64,000 nt of DNA, from the NCBI GenBank assembly GCA_030524425.1, contig JAUNGN010000010.1, positions 1 through 64,000 of the forward strand. Reading direction: 5' to 3'. Shown piece after piece: positions 7,760 to 29,936 of the stretch. Below the pieces are notes generated by a model, which did not search any database, was not told the origin of the DNA, and worked only from the letters and a program-made list of their open reading frames with translations. A program made the position numbers and the translations under genes. Within the stretch, counting starts at the first letter, position 1. Each line of letters opens with the position of its first letter. The DNA is from Clostridia bacterium (GTDB taxonomy: Bacteria; Bacillota; Clostridia; Lachnospirales; CAG-274).

Positions 7760-7792
7760 TGTCGCACTTTGTCACTGTTTATGATTTATTAT
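7760..7792 (+). promoter_or_regulatory. Shared regulon promoter, site 1 (upstream of lysis cassette)
   Basis: TGTCGCACTTTGTCAC at 7760-7775 is one base different from the element at two other phage-like operons here. TATTAT follows after exactly 11 bp (7787-7792), as at the other two sites. No consensus -35 is present: the position 17 bp before the -10 falls inside the element. The first coding start is 74 bp downstream of the element. Confidence 0.75.
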
Positions 7793-7849
7793 AACTTAAA
7801 GGGCAATAAATGATGCTCTTTAACATAGAATTTATCAGGAGGTGAAAAA

Positions 7850-8227
7850 ATGCTGTGGTCAATAATTACTGAGCATATTTTAGAAAGTATGCTAATGCTT
7901 ATTACTTCCGTGTTCACAGTATATTTAAGGCGTCATAAAGCTTTGGAACAGGGAGTACAGGCTTTATTGAGAACGGAAATTATATCCATATACAACAAAT
8001 ATTTTGAGCTGGGCTATTGTCCTATATATGCAAAGGAGAATATTGAGGCGTTGTACAAACAGTACAAGGCTCTTGGAGGCAACGGAGCCGCTGCTTCAAT
8101 GACTGAAACTATAAGGGATTTGCCTACGGAATTAAAGGAGGTTAATTTATATGAAAATAAAGAAGGAGACTATTATAAGAACAGTGGTGCTTCTGGCGGC
8201 AATTATAAATCAGATACTCACAGCTAA
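7850..8227 (+). CDS. Phage holin-like membrane protein (first gene of lysis cassette)
   Basis: A 125-residue protein with an N-terminal membrane segment (about 5-25) followed by a conserved-looking block, RRHKALEQGVQALLRTEIISIYNKYFELGYCPIYAKENIEALYKQYKALGGNG. I recognise this as the small phage protein commonly encoded beside tail and lysis genes of clostridial prophages. Its role there is probably in lysis or as a holin accessory. AGGAGGTG lies just before the ATG. The end overlaps the next gene by 77 bp. Confidence 0.65.
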   Translation: MLWSIITEHILESMLMLITSVFTVYLRRHKALEQGVQALLRTEIISIYNKYFELGYCPIYAKENIEALYKQYKALGGNGAAASMTETIRDLPTELKEVNLYENKEGDYYKNSGASGGNYKSDTHS

Positions 8228-8393
8228 GGGGAAGTGCCCCCTTCCTATAGAGGATAGTGAACTTAGTCAGCTTGTATCGGCTTTATTTACTGCAGGAGCA
8301 GCTCTTTGGGCGTGGTGGAAAAATAATTCCTTTACAAAGGCTGCAATAAATGCTGATGAGGTTTTGAATGATTTCAAGGGGAGGAAGGAATGA
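8151..8393 (+). CDS. SPP1-type phage holin
   Basis: An 80-residue protein with two hydrophobic segments (about 8-23 and 41-57, with an AGAALWAWWKNNSFTKAA turn) and a charged C-terminus. These are features of the SPP1 holin family, which makes membrane lesions that release endolysin. AAAGGAGG precedes the ATG inside the upstream gene. The stop codon overlaps the amidase start, so the three genes are translationally coupled. Confidence 0.75.
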   Translation: MKIKKETIIRTVVLLAAIINQILTAKGKCPLPIEDSELSQLVSALFTAGAALWAWWKNNSFTKAAINADEVLNDFKGRKE

Positions 8394-9037
8394 TGCCGTA
8401 TATTTTTTCTGTCATTAACGCAAAAAACACAAATTTTGGAAAAGAAAGACAGGTAAACAGCATAAAATATATTGTAATACATTATACTGCAAATAACGGC
8501 GATACCGCTAAGGGCAACGGCAATTATTTTGCTTATAATAATACAGGTGCAAGTGCTCACTATTTTGTAGATGAAAATAATGTTGTTCAGTCTGTAAGGG
8601 ATAATTATGCTGCATGGCACTGCGGTGCAAAAAAATATTATCACAGCAGCTGCAGAAATGAAAATTCAATCGGTATTGAACTTTGTTCCGAAAAGGATTC
8701 AAAAGGTGAATTTTACTTTAATGAAGCAACGGTGAATAATGCACTTGAGCTTACCAAAAAGCTTATGACGAAGTATAATGTAACTGCTGAAAATGTTATA
8801 CGTCATTATGATGTGACTCATAAGATTTGCCCTGCACCCTTTGTAAACAATGGAGGGGCATGGCAGAACTTTAAAAAAAGACTGGAGGTGAATGCAATGA
8901 TTGACAATTATGATGATGCGGTTAAGGTACTTGCGGATAATGGTGTTATTACTACTGCAGCCTATTGGAATAACGCTGTTAAGGTAGTTAAACATCTTGA
9001 CGCTTTAATTATAAATATGGCAAATAAATTAGAATAG
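8393..9037 (+). CDS. N-acetylmuramoyl-L-alanine amidase (phage endolysin type)
   Basis: Amidase_2 family enzyme of about 214 residues that cleaves the amide bond between MurNAc and the stem peptide. Zinc ligands are visible: His in KYIVIHYTA, His in VIRHYD and Cys in KICPAPF. The C-terminal 45 residues (NYDDAVKVLADNGVI...YWNNAVKVVKHLDALI) form the small domain usual in clostridial phage amidases. ATGATG gives starts at 8390 and 8393; 8393 has better spacing (8 bp) from AAGGGGAGG. There is no signal peptide, so release depends on the adjacent holin. No head or tail genes flank it. Confidence 0.88.
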   Translation: MPYIFSVINAKNTNFGKERQVNSIKYIVIHYTANNGDTAKGNGNYFAYNNTGASAHYFVDENNVVQSVRDNYAAWHCGAKKYYHSSCRNENSIGIELCSEKDSKGEFYFNEATVNNALELTKKLMTKYNVTAENVIRHYDVTHKICPAPFVNNGGAWQNFKKRLEVNAMIDNYDDAVKVLADNGVITTAAYWNNAVKVVKHLDALIINMANKLE

Positions 9038-13167: not shown

Positions 13168-13569
13168 TTATTCAGCATCTGCTTCTTCAAACATAGCTTC
13201 CTTAGGACTTGGAGTAGGAATGTACTTATTTAAAGCTTTGGCATTTGCGGCAAGAATCTGAACCTTATCTTCTGCCATAGTATTAATCATACTGATTAAA
13301 GCTCTTCTGTCCTTTTCTACTCTGTTAACACTCTTAGGAGTTGAAGCCTTACCAAGAGATAAATCCTTAGTAATAAGTTCATCAAGAGTAATATCAAAAA
13401 ATTCAGCAATTTTAACCATATTAGTGATACTTGTACCTCTCTGACCTCTTTCAATAAGACCGACAAAGCCTGGAGCCATACCGATTACCTTAGCAAAGTC
13501 GTCTATTGTAAGACCTCTTAACTTTCTTTCATACCTAATGTTAGAACCAATAATTTTTGTGTAATTCAT
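13168..13569 (-). CDS. XRE-family helix-turn-helix transcriptional regulator
   Basis: A 133-residue DNA-binding protein. The HTH_3 domain occupies residues about 6-62 (IGSNIRYERKLRGLTIDDFAKVIGMAPGFVGLIERGQRG, then MVKIAEFFDITLDELI). The rest (from about 75) is helical and ends in a short acidic tail; it carries no recognised ligand domain. It has its own promoter with two matching AAAAAGCAAC repeats, suggesting autoregulation. Target genes are unknown, and nothing ties it to the phage-like loci. Confidence 0.85.
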   Translation of the reverse strand: MNYTKIIGSNIRYERKLRGLTIDDFAKVIGMAPGFVGLIERGQRGTSITNMVKIAEFFDITLDELITKDLSLGKASTPKSVNRVEKDRRALISMINTMAEDKVQILAANAKALNKYIPTPSPKEAMFEEADAE

Positions 13570-17898: not shown

Positions 17899-17936
17899 AA
17901 GTCATCCAAAAGGATATCTTTTGGATGACTTTTTAA
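17899..17936 (+). terminator. Terminator of the DUF4914 gene
   Basis: AAGTCATCCAAAAG at 17899-17912 and CTTTTGGATGACTT at 17918-17931 form a perfect 14-bp stem with a 5-nt loop, followed by Ts. The 3' arm with its T run is repeated immediately downstream (about 17937-17951). Confidence 0.9.
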
Positions 17937-17954: not shown

Positions 17955-18518
17955 TTATAGTTTTATATGACCAAACAGATTATCTTTATCCTCCTGAGAA
18001 ATACACAGAAATCTTTTGGTTGAGTTATAACTTTTGTGATTAAATATTTCCATAAGAAGAGCAGGTTCGGCCCCCTTTTTCCATGCATAATAGCCAAAGG
18101 TTTTTCTTAAGGAATTACAGCTTAAATGGCCTATATTGCAGGCTTCACCGGCTTCCTTTATTATTCTGTATACCTGAACTCTGCTTATGGGCTTGCCCTG
18201 CTTATTTGTAAATATATTTTCATCAGGGCATTTATTTATGCCGTCATACAGCTTAAAGGCATCTCTTATTGCACTGTTTATGTATATTTCCTGTGCTTTG
18301 CGCGTTTTTTCATCTCTTACAGTAATGTGATTTTTGAAGCGCTTATTATCATAATCATATAAATCTTTGTGTTTGAGATTTAAAATATGGCCTATTTTTA
18401 ATGCCGTATTCAGCTGTATTGTGATTAAAAGATAATTTCTGTACTCCTTCCTTTTTATAAAGAAGAGTTTAAATTTGATTATGTCATCCTTGTTTTTAAT
18501 TGGTTTTGCTGTATTCAT
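17955..18518 (-). CDS. Short tyrosine-recombinase-family protein with lost catalytic residues
   Basis: A 187-residue homologue of the short phage-type tyrosine recombinases of Clostridia (catalytic domain only). The fold is recognisable: NTALKIGHILNLKHKDL, SRVQVYRIIKEAG, NSLRKTFGYYAWKKG, IFNHKSYNSTKRFLCI. By alignment to the family, catalytic Arg I is Lys41, the His before LRKTF is Asn135, and the nucleophilic Tyr is Phe170 (codon TTT). Lys71, Arg138 and His161 remain. It should be unable to cut DNA but might still bind it. The start at 18518 follows AAGGAGG; the longer frame runs into the shared promoter element. Confidence 0.82.
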   Translation of the reverse strand: MNTAKPIKNKDDIIKFKLFFIKRKEYRNYLLITIQLNTALKIGHILNLKHKDLYDYDNKRFKNHITVRDEKTRKAQEIYINSAIRDAFKLYDGINKCPDENIFTNKQGKPISRVQVYRIIKEAGEACNIGHLSCNSLRKTFGYYAWKKGAEPALLMEIFNHKSYNSTKRFLCISQEDKDNLFGHIKL

Positions 18519-18542
18519 ATATATGACCTCCTTCGTAATATA

Positions 18543-18575
18543 ATTATATATTAAGTAAAGTGACAAAGTGTGACA
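18543..18575 (-). promoter_or_regulatory. Shared regulon promoter, site 2 (upstream of dead integrase gene)
   Basis: On the minus strand TGTCACACTTTGTCAC (plus 18560-18575) is followed after exactly 11 bp by a perfect TATAAT (plus 18543-18548). The 16-mer is identical to site 3 at 29921-29936. The start codon is 41 bp downstream. Confidence 0.8.
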
Positions 18576-26686: not shown

Positions 26687-27319
26687 TTAATATGTTCCGT
26701 CGCATCCGCTTAGTGCTCTTATGAGTATTTCACTAAGTTCTTCAAGTACGTCATTACAGTTAGCCTCTGTTATGTTTTGAGTAACACCTCCTAAGTTGAT
26801 ATTTATATTTGAGCCTGCCTTGGAGCTGTAATTTTGAGTTGTACTGTCACTTTTTGAAATGTTGTCCACAAAGCTGTAAATTTCTTTGAAATCACTGATG
26901 CTGTGGATAAAATTTGAATTATCAACGGAGTTATTATGATTATCCGCAAAGTTTTCAGACTTATCCACAAAATTACTGTAAAAGTCCCCATAGCTTGCAG
27001 TAGTACTGGTATTTCCGCTGTGGACAACTTTAAGGAATGAATTTTCCATATTATTATATAATTCTTCTGTATTATTGATATTTTCTAATACTTCACGGGA
27101 ATTATACATATTATTTACATTATCGATTTTAGAGTAAAGGTTATCCACATATTCACATAAATTTCTTGTTGAGTTGAGTATATTGGTTTCTTTATTCACA
27201 TAGTTATTCACTGATAATGCTGATAAAGAACTGCCGGCTTCTGTTAATTTAAGTATGGGAGCAGTGCTTATGCTGTTTATTTTGTTTATTGTATTTATAA
27301 TTTCCGCTATGTTATTCAT
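26687..27319 (-). CDS. Small Asn-rich protein with tape-measure-like C-terminus (phage-like operon)
   Basis: A 210-residue, Asn- and Ser-rich, mostly polar protein with no signal or membrane segment. The C-terminal 40 residues (NINLGGVTQNITEANCNDVLEELSEILIRALSG) resemble the tail end of phage tail tape-measure proteins, but the long coiled body is absent; the match is tentative. Short V-D-N/K words recur. AGGAGGT precedes the ATG, 12 bp after the XkdP-like gene, so it is the last gene of the operon. The gene body also carries a DnaA-box cluster. Confidence 0.5.
   Translation of the reverse strand: MNNIAEIINTINKINSISTAPILKLTEAGSSLSALSVNNYVNKETNILNSTRNLCEYVDNLYSKIDNVNNMYNSREVLENINNTEELYNNMENSFLKVVHSGNTSTTASYGDFYSNFVDKSENFADNHNNSVDNSNFIHSISDFKEIYSFVDNISKSDSTTQNYSSKAGSNININLGGVTQNITEANCNDVLEELSEILIRALSGCDGTY
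26862..27200. other. Cluster of seven DnaA-box-like 9-mers inside a coding region
   Basis: Boxes seen: TTGTCCACA 26862-26870; TTATCCACA on the minus strand 26902-26910; TTATCCGCA 26940-26948; TTATCCACA 26961-26969; TTGTCCACA on the minus strand 27019-27027; TTATCCACA 27141-27149; TTATTCACA 27192-27200. Three are perfect consensus. They occur in both orientations and encode different residues (V-D-N/K in one, I-H-S or V-H-S in the other), so a protein repeat alone does not explain them. A very AT-rich stretch lies between the fifth and sixth boxes (about 27050-27080). Confidence 0.55.
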
Positions 27320-27331
27320 TTTTTTTACCTC

Positions 27332-27967
27332 CTATGGCAATATTATTGTTGTGCCGGTATATAATTTATCAGGATTTGAAATTACATTTTTATTTGCGTT
27401 GTAAATATCCTGCCATTTACTTCCGTCACCATATATGGACTTTGCTATTTTCCAAAGACTGTCACCTGATTTTACGGTATATTGGGTATTTTTTGCAGTT
27501 TGTGTATTATTAACTGATGTTACGGTGGTTTCAGATGAATAGAATTTTGCACCGTAGGCTTCATATTCCCTTAGCTTTATATCAATAGCCAAATCATAGC
27601 CGTTTTCAGCCGATTCCGTAAAAGTAAGCTCTTCAATTACCGCATATATTCCCGTGTAATTAAATACTTTTGTTCCTTTTGTTCTGGTTATTACAAAGGC
27701 TATGATTTCATTTTCATTTTTAAGGCTTTCTATAGCGTCTTTATAATAATCACTGCTCTGATACTCATTATTGCTGTAATTTGCAAAAGGATAACTGCTG
27801 TTGGGTATAAGGGCTTTAAAGGATATGGTTTTAAGCCGCGGGGATTTTAATATGTTAATCTCCTTTCCTTCTGCTATACTTATTGTTTTGTTTGATGAAC
27901 CTATGCCTATTGTGACCTTTGATGGGGCAACAGGCAGTTTAATTTCTCCTAAATAAAAATCGTACAT
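27332..27967 (-). CDS. XkdP-like phage tail protein with C-terminal LysM domain
   Basis: A 211-residue protein. The N-terminal part (MYDFYLGEIKLPVAPSKVTIGIGSSNKTISIAEGKEINILKSPRLKTISFKALIP) matches the layout of XkdP of the PBSX prophage and relatives, which sit at the base of contractile tails. A LysM domain closes the protein (about 163-211; YTVKSGDSLWKIAKSIYGDGSKWQDIYNANK). No other tail gene follows in the usual xkd order. AAGGAG precedes the ATG. Confidence 0.78.
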   Translation of the reverse strand: MYDFYLGEIKLPVAPSKVTIGIGSSNKTISIAEGKEINILKSPRLKTISFKALIPNSSYPFANYSNNEYQSSDYYKDAIESLKNENEIIAFVITRTKGTKVFNYTGIYAVIEELTFTESAENGYDLAIDIKLREYEAYGAKFYSSETTVTSVNNTQTAKNTQYTVKSGDSLWKIAKSIYGDGSKWQDIYNANKNVISNPDKLYTGTTIILP

Positions 27968-28019
27968 ATAATTTTCTCCTTTCGTTAATTATTTGATTAT
28001 GCATTTTTTTAATTGTAAT

Positions 28020-29873
28020 TTAAATAACTTCTTTCAAAACAAGGTTTTTTAATCCCTTTTCCGCACTAAGGCCTATTATCTGGCAGGGACTTTCAATAAG
28101 GTTTGTAATACTTTCTCTGTTATCAATAAATACAGGTGCATACAGATTATAGCGGCTTGAAAGGGTATTGATAATATCAATCCCGCAGTTTGTTTTCATT
28201 GCCGAATTTAAGTCCTTATAGGGCACTCCCTTTACCATGGGGATACAGCAGTCCTCTATATTGCCGTTTATAAGTTTTTTAAAAAGCTTAAATTTTACTA
28301 TACTGAAATGGGAGTTAATTTCCTTTTCAATATACTCTGCCTTTAAACTCATAAGTCTGTGTATGTCTTTAAGTCTTTTTTCTTCGTCTTTAAGCTCCTT
28401 TTTAAGTTTTTTTTCTTCGGAAATATTTTTATTGATCCGTTTTAATATTCTTTGGTTTTGTTCAAATTTAAATTTTTTTATGTTAAGTATGTTAATCCTT
28501 TCACACCACTTATCATATTCTTCTCTGAGTTTTTCCTTTTCTGAATGCTTAAGCTTTTCAAGCTCCCCTTCAAGAAGGAGGTACTCCAGGTCAGGCTCAA
28601 ATTCCTTAATTTTAATAGCCTTGTATTCTTCAAGCCTTTTATTGTATTCTTTAAGCTCCCTTTCTGTTCTTAAAATATGGGAATTTATACCTTCTATATA
28701 GTTTTCAAGTTCTTTTTTTTCGTCCTTAAGTTTTAATAAACTGCTTTGTGCTTTTTTTATACTGCTTTCTTTGTTTCTGTTAAATTCTGCAATTTTTTCA
28801 ACCCTTTTTTCTCCTGTAAGGTGTCTGCCGCAAAGCGGACAAATAAGCTTTGATTCGTCAAGTACACTTTTTTCAAGTTCAATAATAAGTTTAGCAGTGT
28901 TTTCTATATTATTTTTTACTTCCGGCAGATGTTCTTTTGATGCTGAAAGCCTTTCTGCATAGACTGTTTTATCACTTTCAAGAGAGGCAATTTTTATTTC
29001 TGATTTATGTATTTTGTTAAGTTTATCTTTGTGTTGTGCCTGATATTTTATATTAAAGCTTTCTCTTATTTCATACATTCTTTTTCCTATAAATTCATAT
29101 CTTAATTCCTTTGTATTATATTCCTTTCTTCCAAGTATTGTTTCCTTTAAAGATTCCAGTTTTTCCTTTGCTTCTTTTAAGTCTGCGTCAAGAGCCGAAA
29201 AGTCATCATATTCTATACTTTTTTTTAATTCCTCTCTTTTTATCGGCAGAGTATCAAGAGTGTTTCTTATTGCTGTTATTTTATCTGTTATGGATTTGTG
29301 TAAAGGGTCATAGCCGTATTTGTCAGCTTCTGCTGCAAGGGCAGTGTCACTCAGGGCGGTGAAGGGCGTATTATTACATAGCTCCATAAGCAACTTTCTT
29401 GCTTCCTGCCAATTCATACTACAGAAATAATCTGTATTTGTAAGCATTTTAAAAATATCTTCTCTTATAATTTCGGATATTCTGCTTCTGTATTTGCTTT
29501 GGCTTACATTTACGCCGTTTATTTTGTAGTAATGCTCGTTTCCTTTGTATTTTCTGCTGTTTTTACCGTTATTTTGCCATTTATCGCTTATGCCTGCCGT
29601 AAGGTTTAATATTTTGCCGTCAATGTCCAGGGTAATATCAGCTTCATGGTCAAGGTCAGGTATTTCCTCGCCTTTTAAGTTTAAGGTTTTTATTGCAAAT
29701 TCACTTCTGTTTTTGCTGTCGCAGTTAAAGAGGGCATACATAAAGCCATCAAAAATTGTGGTTTTACCAATACCGTTGTCACCATATAATATAGAGCTGC
29801 CATTAAAATCAAGAGATATGTGTTCAATAGACTTAAAATTTTTAAGTGTAATGTTTTTTAGCTTTATTATCAT
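28020..29873 (-). CDS. Rad50/SMC-like AAA ATPase of phage type
   Basis: A 617-residue ABC-type ATPase with Walker A GDNGIGKTT (residues about 31-39), two long coiled coils (about 190-340 and 365-520) and a hook-like CPLCGRHL at about residue 350. A C-terminal Walker-B-like APVFIDNRESI completes it. The size and the DNRES motif match ATP-binding proteins that clostridial phages encode near recombination genes. It probably acts on DNA ends, with or without a nuclease partner; no partner is in this operon. It leads the operon and has the shared promoter element 47 bp upstream. Confidence 0.8.
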   Translation of the reverse strand: MIIKLKNITLKNFKSIEHISLDFNGSSILYGDNGIGKTTIFDGFMYALFNCDSKNRSEFAIKTLNLKGEEIPDLDHEADITLDIDGKILNLTAGISDKWQNNGKNSRKYKGNEHYYKINGVNVSQSKYRSRISEIIREDIFKMLTNTDYFCSMNWQEARKLLMELCNNTPFTALSDTALAAEADKYGYDPLHKSITDKITAIRNTLDTLPIKREELKKSIEYDDFSALDADLKEAKEKLESLKETILGRKEYNTKELRYEFIGKRMYEIRESFNIKYQAQHKDKLNKIHKSEIKIASLESDKTVYAERLSASKEHLPEVKNNIENTAKLIIELEKSVLDESKLICPLCGRHLTGEKRVEKIAEFNRNKESSIKKAQSSLLKLKDEKKELENYIEGINSHILRTERELKEYNKRLEEYKAIKIKEFEPDLEYLLLEGELEKLKHSEKEKLREEYDKWCERINILNIKKFKFEQNQRILKRINKNISEEKKLKKELKDEEKRLKDIHRLMSLKAEYIEKEINSHFSIVKFKLFKKLINGNIEDCCIPMVKGVPYKDLNSAMKTNCGIDIINTLSSRYNLYAPVFIDNRESITNLIESPCQIIGLSAEKGLKNLVLKEVI

Positions 29874-29903
29874 ATAATTAACCTCCTTTGTGAGTTTAAA
29901 GAG

Positions 29904-29936
29904 AGCATATCATGAATTAAGTGACAAAGTGTGACA
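29904..29936 (-). promoter_or_regulatory. Shared regulon promoter, site 3 (upstream of phage ATPase operon)
   Basis: On the minus strand TGTCACACTTTGTCAC (plus 29921-29936) is followed after exactly 11 bp by TATGCT (plus 29904-29909), preceded by a TG. The 16-mer is identical to site 2 and one base different from site 1. Confidence 0.8.

Follow-up and report, generated by a model that had tools for sequence, protein, structure and literature searches.

How can a recombinase gene lose its active site and still keep its reading frame and its expression signals? The question is raised by a gene on the minus strand of a 64,000-nucleotide stretch of the genome of a gut bacterium of the Clostridia (hereafter, the window), at 17955–18518 (start 18518, last codon 17958, stop 17955–17957), whose 187-aa product matches Pfam family PF00589 (Phage_integrase) at 5.4e-20. 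A sequence-only reading had recognised a tyrosine-recombinase fold with three altered catalytic positions, and had proposed that the gene is retained for DNA binding rather than decaying. Aligned with its family, the protein does carry Lys41 for Arg, Asn135 for the His of the HSLRKTF motif, and Phe170 for Tyr; the codons involved (AAA, AAT and TTT) are each one base from the AGA, CAT and TAT of its closest paralogue. The observation was thus confirmed and, if anything, slightly understated, as a fourth core residue that it had missed, Asp44 (the D/E three residues past the first Arg), has become His. Scored against the seven-residue core R, D/E, K, H, R, H/W, Y as given for MrpR (PMC10516654), the protein reads K41, H44, K71, N135, R138, H161 and F170, retaining K71, R138 and H161 and losing four of the seven. 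With these four gone, the nucleophile included, the protein cannot cleave DNA by the usual route. Phenylalanine is unable to form a phosphotyrosine, and this established chemistry excludes recombination by the 187-aa protein alone. Judged from its residues, the recombinase is catalytically dead, and we refer to it below as the dead copy.

Its fold is predicted to be intact. A model of the protein has a mean pLDDT of 91.4, and its best structural alignments are with catalytic domains, those of archaeal Xer/XerA, a mycobacteriophage integrase, XerH and Tn1549 Int (Z 14.5–18.7; 18.7 for 4A8E), which, together with the Pfam match, bears out the earlier fold assignment. The core-binding domain is absent, as it is from relatives of the same length. 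AlphaFold confidence is similar for the dead copy and its intact paralogue except across residues 161–170, the Tyr segment, where mean pLDDT is 66 versus 87; with the change of Ile166 to Ser, this amounts to a local loosening. The Q175/D179 segment at the C terminus is conserved, and no stop or frameshift interrupts the 17955–18518 frame.

Among 88 full-length relatives other than the dead copy, drawn from unbiased whole-genome searches, the six scored residues (R-K-H-R-H-Y) are complete in 86, the exceptions L030 (H161Q) and L116 (H135Q) missing one His each. Arg41, Asp44 and Tyr170 are present in all 88 and lost only in the dead copy. Additional scans recovered the full catalytic set in 80 of 80 named-genome relatives and 65 of 66 viral-contig relatives, counts that lean towards intact copies since conserved peptides served as the seeds. 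The same genome holds four copies of the family: the dead one, a paralogue on contig C11 at 68% identity, and two at 44–46%. In the tree, the dead copy pairs with the C11 copy (support 97/96) on branches of 0.39 and 0.18, respectively, and we found no relative closer than this same-genome paralogue in the genus, the family, a 392-genome sample of the order or a single-protein search of genome contigs. The dead gene was seen in one sampled species only, and no similar dead partner copy occurs in any other genome examined. Nor did the genus relatives offer a clean empty site, as in none of them is the PEPCK-like gene next to the ACT-domain gene.

The intact relatives suggest what this protein descends from. 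An inverted repeat lies near the start codon in 52 of the 77 relatives with readable upstream DNA (P 0.05 or less against dinucleotide shuffles), its proximal arm mostly within ~65 bp of the start codon and its arms ~110–150 bp apart. The enclosed segment holds a sigma-70 promoter of the form TTGACA-17-TATAAT, with 11 or 12 of 12 matches, in 27 relatives. Such an arrangement is that of promoter invertons with their own recombinase, and most relatives are promoter invertases. Within the upstream regions of L002–L039 and L107–L139, 25 inverton promoters point away from the gene and two (L004 and L027) towards it; the presence of both orientations is consistent with two switch states. Where the recombinase is followed by a gene in the same direction, the product is often secreted, a membrane protein of chain-length type or a regulator of the XRE class, categories assigned by eye from the sequences except for domains that were searched. 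In G161, G219, G114 and G015, several contigs stop within ~30–80 bp upstream of a recombinase start, close to the inverted repeats; assembly breaks of this kind are expected from mixed orientations or from identical copies.

None of this architecture was found around the dead copy. The search upstream recovered no inverted-repeat pair (best pair score 8, P 0.49) and no consensus invertible promoter, and behind the gene there is no payload: an inverted repeat at 17899–17934 (AAGTCATCCAAAAGGATATCTTTTGGATGACTT, then a T run), a probable bidirectional terminator, separates it from a convergent PEPCK-like gene. What remains upstream is a compact set of minus-strand signals. A Shine-Dalgarno sequence, GAAGGAGG, lies 8 nt before the ATG (18527–18534) and is joined directly to a single 25-bp recombination-type site, TTTACTTAATATATAATTATATTAC (18535–18559), which matches the paralogue's distal inverton site (C11:132240-132264) at 22 of 25 positions. 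Within this site lies a −10 hexamer, TATAAT (18543–18548), and next to it is a promoter element, TGTCACACTTTGTCAC (18560–18575), shared with other loci. A genome search allowing up to three mismatches returned the dead copy's site, the paralogue's distal site and one weaker site only. We dropped the idea that the upstream site is a promoter only, as its match to the paralogue's distal site extends beyond the −10.

The shared promoter is a genome-wide feature. TGTCRCNNTTTGTCAC occurs three times in the 64-kb window (none expected from shuffles) and in eight exact copies across the genome (none for the reversed control), and all eight are followed exactly 11 nt downstream by a −10-like hexamer matching at four to six of six positions, giving TGTCRCNNTTTGTCAC-N11-TATNNT; the dead copy's promoter, TGTCRCNNTTTGTCAC-N11-TATAAT, matches the consensus exactly, −10 included. 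The sequence-only reading was therefore right about the full frame, the good ribosome-binding site and the shared promoter. Three of the eight copies precede recombinase genes (the dead copy, the 68% paralogue and another) and five precede phage-type genes. The −10 of the shared promoter and the distal inverton site overlap at the recombinase loci, the only places where the recombination-type palindrome is found; it is absent at the phage promoters. The element also occurs in other species, in front of genes for portal, terminase small subunit, tail-type proteins and recombinases, and in G006 and G013–G015 it stands before phage-type genes though the dead recombinase gene is absent. We accordingly dropped the notion that the dead protein is necessarily the regulator of this regulon.

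The five phage-type loci behind the element comprise a portal-to-tail operon that includes the terminase large subunit, a terminase small subunit gene standing alone, an operon for lysis, one of ATPase/LysM-Dit-like type, and a gene for a GDSL-domain protein. Two lie in the window. The second window copy of the element (7760–7775, plus strand) precedes the lysis operon (7850–9037, plus strand), which encodes a phage family protein of unknown function, an 80-aa ORF and an N-acetylmuramoyl-L-alanine amidase. The third (29921–29936, minus strand) precedes an operon at 26687–29873, also on the minus strand, encoding a RecF/SMC-like AAA ATPase (28020–29873), a LysM/Dit-like tail protein (27332–27967) and a 210-aa protein without a match. 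With these (7760–9037 and 26687–29936), at least five PBSX/xkd-type loci carry the shared promoter, the others being G000:C15:3915-15965 (L176), G000:C45:112956-113365 (L177) and G000:C63:34395-36292 (L178); they are candidate genes for a gene-transfer agent or PBSX-like particle. In the main portal-to-tail operon, we recognised no tape-measure gene. Its major capsid protein has homologues in 40 of 48 family genomes and 10 of 11 genera, and most genomes have one copy or two, which would be expected for a retained element; a second copy in this genome (G000:C57:30008-31063) is 77% identical. An XRE-type regulator in the window (13168–13569, minus strand), of the same kind (GF.GL.ERGQRG) as the payload genes behind recombinases L018 and L034 in other species, is a candidate regulator of the shared promoter. 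A copper-amine-oxidase N-terminal-domain type protein (L178:6142-7242, minus strand), assigned by Pfam match, is encoded behind a phage-regulon gene; the genes behind inverton recombinases L004 and L016 are of this type by resemblance only.

We asked whether the dead copy evolves as a retained or a decaying gene. Conserved positions were lost at four of seven catalytic sites versus one or two of 17–24 others (hypergeometric P 0.014–0.047), values that are optimistic because the test was run after the losses were known. With only the three originally noted catalytic losses, the enrichment is not significant (P 0.108); it becomes so on adding the recognised core residue Asp44, itself a post hoc step. 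Residue-class conservation kept by the paralogue is broken in the dead copy only at D44, A116, H135 and I166. In a neutral simulation run to the same six conserved losses, which ignored indels, the probability of meeting no stop was 0.05; for this outcome combined with four or more catalytic losses, it was 0.002. Omega varies with the assumption made, and we therefore report all values. A 19-taxon run gave a dead-branch omega of 0.25 against a background of 0.094 (likelihood ratio ~4.1), with omega = 1 not rejected; a 10-taxon run gave 0.50, again without rejecting neutrality; and assuming equal synonymous time for the two paralogues gave 0.19, with omega = 1 rejected by 21 log units. Constraint on the dead branch is relaxed about two-fold or more relative to background.

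Our best reading, which we hold tentatively and which falls a little short of being probable, is that the dead copy is a DNA-binding paralogue that regulates itself and its paralogue's inverton. A duplicated promoter invertase would have been stripped of its invertible segment and of catalysis, yet the fold and, probably, the ability to recognise DNA would have survived. The segment may have been excised instead of inverted, between two AT-rich near-palindromic sites; we infer that recombination between such near-palindromic ends is the simplest history. Excision would have taken away the enzyme's substrate and so relaxed selection on catalysis. The losses, set beside an intact gene, fold and shared promoter, suggest that the protein now only binds DNA, as a regulator. 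It could then occupy the site at 18535–18559, repressing or tuning its own promoter, and bind the similar sites of the paralogue's inverton (C11:132.2 kb), where site occupation or mixed tetramers would dampen or bias promoter flipping. Occupying its own promoter site and those of its paralogue would be its most economical function. Integrase mutants of Tn1549 with R-to-K or Y-to-F changes have been crystallised on DNA (6EMZ, 6EN2, 6EMY), so such changes need not abolish binding. The gene lies directly behind the shared promoter, whose −10 falls inside a recombination-type site, and both features favour this reading; the one-species distribution, the raised branch omega and the loosened Tyr segment speak against it.

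The last three points belong equally to the main rival, recent decay, a serious if lesser possibility in which the lost segment left catalysis without a substrate or selection, the frame is merely unbroken as yet, and promoter and ribosome-binding site persist by inertia. The missing payload gene, the longer protein branch of the dead copy relative to its paralogue, and a branch omega about twice background or more, with neutrality not rejected in the unconstrained fits, all fit such a history. Random decay is not favoured by the concentration of losses in the active site, however, and the frame has no stop although a neutral run to the same losses usually yields one; the equal-time fit rejects neutrality, and a split-frame relative, L032, shows the opposite pattern, with its catalytic residues kept. 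The proposal of retention for DNA binding thus stands in part: the losses focus on the active site while fold, promoter, ribosome-binding site and frame are kept, but dN/dS is relaxed and neutrality is rejected only under the equal-time assumption. We found no support for the further suggestion of a DNA-organising factor.

Other roles are harder to sustain. A master regulator in the manner of MrpR, binding the shared element and controlling all the scattered phage-type operons, would account for the dead gene and the phage-type loci being driven by the same promoter, and has precedent in the phage repressors MrpR and SroF, which have a recombinase fold (PMC10516654). A regulon-wide role is decidedly unlikely, because the element is conserved before phage-type genes in species that lack the dead gene and the palindrome is missing from the phage promoters; the dead copy moreover has no core-binding domain and is 13% identical in sequence to MrpR. 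Alternatively, the 68% identity and similar site sequence of the paralogue, together with the conserved C-terminal Q175/D179 segment, would suit a non-catalytic subunit that works only with the intact paralogue, in mixed tetramers setting the direction or order of strand exchange. This is very improbable: with a dead partner in no other genome examined, the family does not need one. Hardly credible is a recombinase still active by means of a non-standard nucleophile or of a tyrosine supplied in trans; Lys71, Arg138 and His161 are kept, but Phe cannot serve as nucleophile, Arg41, Asp44 and His135 are lost as well, and the locus has no repeat pair on which to act.

If a self-regulating, DNA-binding paralogue is the right reading, the dead copy extends a short list. 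To our knowledge, few cases of a site-specific recombinase becoming a DNA-binding regulator are known (MrpR and SroF), and these are highly diverged from active relatives; here, the genome also holds an intact paralogue at 68% identity, with recognisable target sites, so that the step from enzyme to regulator is directly testable. The dead copy also belongs to a promoter network that connects surface phase variation with dispersed phage-particle genes; this setting, in which PBSX-like particle genes and phase-variation recombinases have one promoter in common, is perhaps the more important result. The fullest version of the story is unlikely: an invertase would have removed its own switch by excision and, with catalysis gone, turned into the DNA-binding regulator of a regulon that spans the genome and joins scattered PBSX-like particle genes with surface-switching invertons. 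If true, phage regulators with a recombinase fold would have arisen a second time, independently, and here within a single species. We found little literature on clostridial promoter invertons with self-encoded recombinases or on scattered Firmicutes transfer agents, in a limited collection, and such work may have been published.

Compared with known systems, the dead copy most resembles the short (~190 aa) promoter-inverting tyrosine recombinases of Clostridia, which it matches in fold, length, upstream promoter element and recombination-type site, with 44–68% identity to those of its own genome; unlike them, it lacks the catalytic core, the inverted-repeat pair, the invertible promoter and the payload gene. 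PBSX and FpGTA, the only Gram-positive systems of such type named in PMC12946183, are phage-like DNA-packaging particles that parallel the co-regulated PBSX/xkd-type head, tail, terminase and lysis genes found here; in this genome, however, a single promoter unites genes dispersed over several loci, and the particle is putative. MrpR/YopR of SPbeta and SroF of phi3T share the dead recombinase fold (Z 10.8–11.4). MrpR has Asn at the His position, as the dead copy does, and binds a repeated 15-bp element (PMC10516654), and a dispersed short element likewise exists in this genome; binding to the repeated element is demonstrated for MrpR and putative for the dead copy. MrpR differs in having a core-binding domain and in keeping Tyr and Lys, and the dead-copy model aligns only to residues 103–300 of 8A0A, the catalytic domain. 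The dead copy is of independent origin from MrpR and SroF, and is an independent case of a recombinase that lost catalysis and kept its fold and expression signals.
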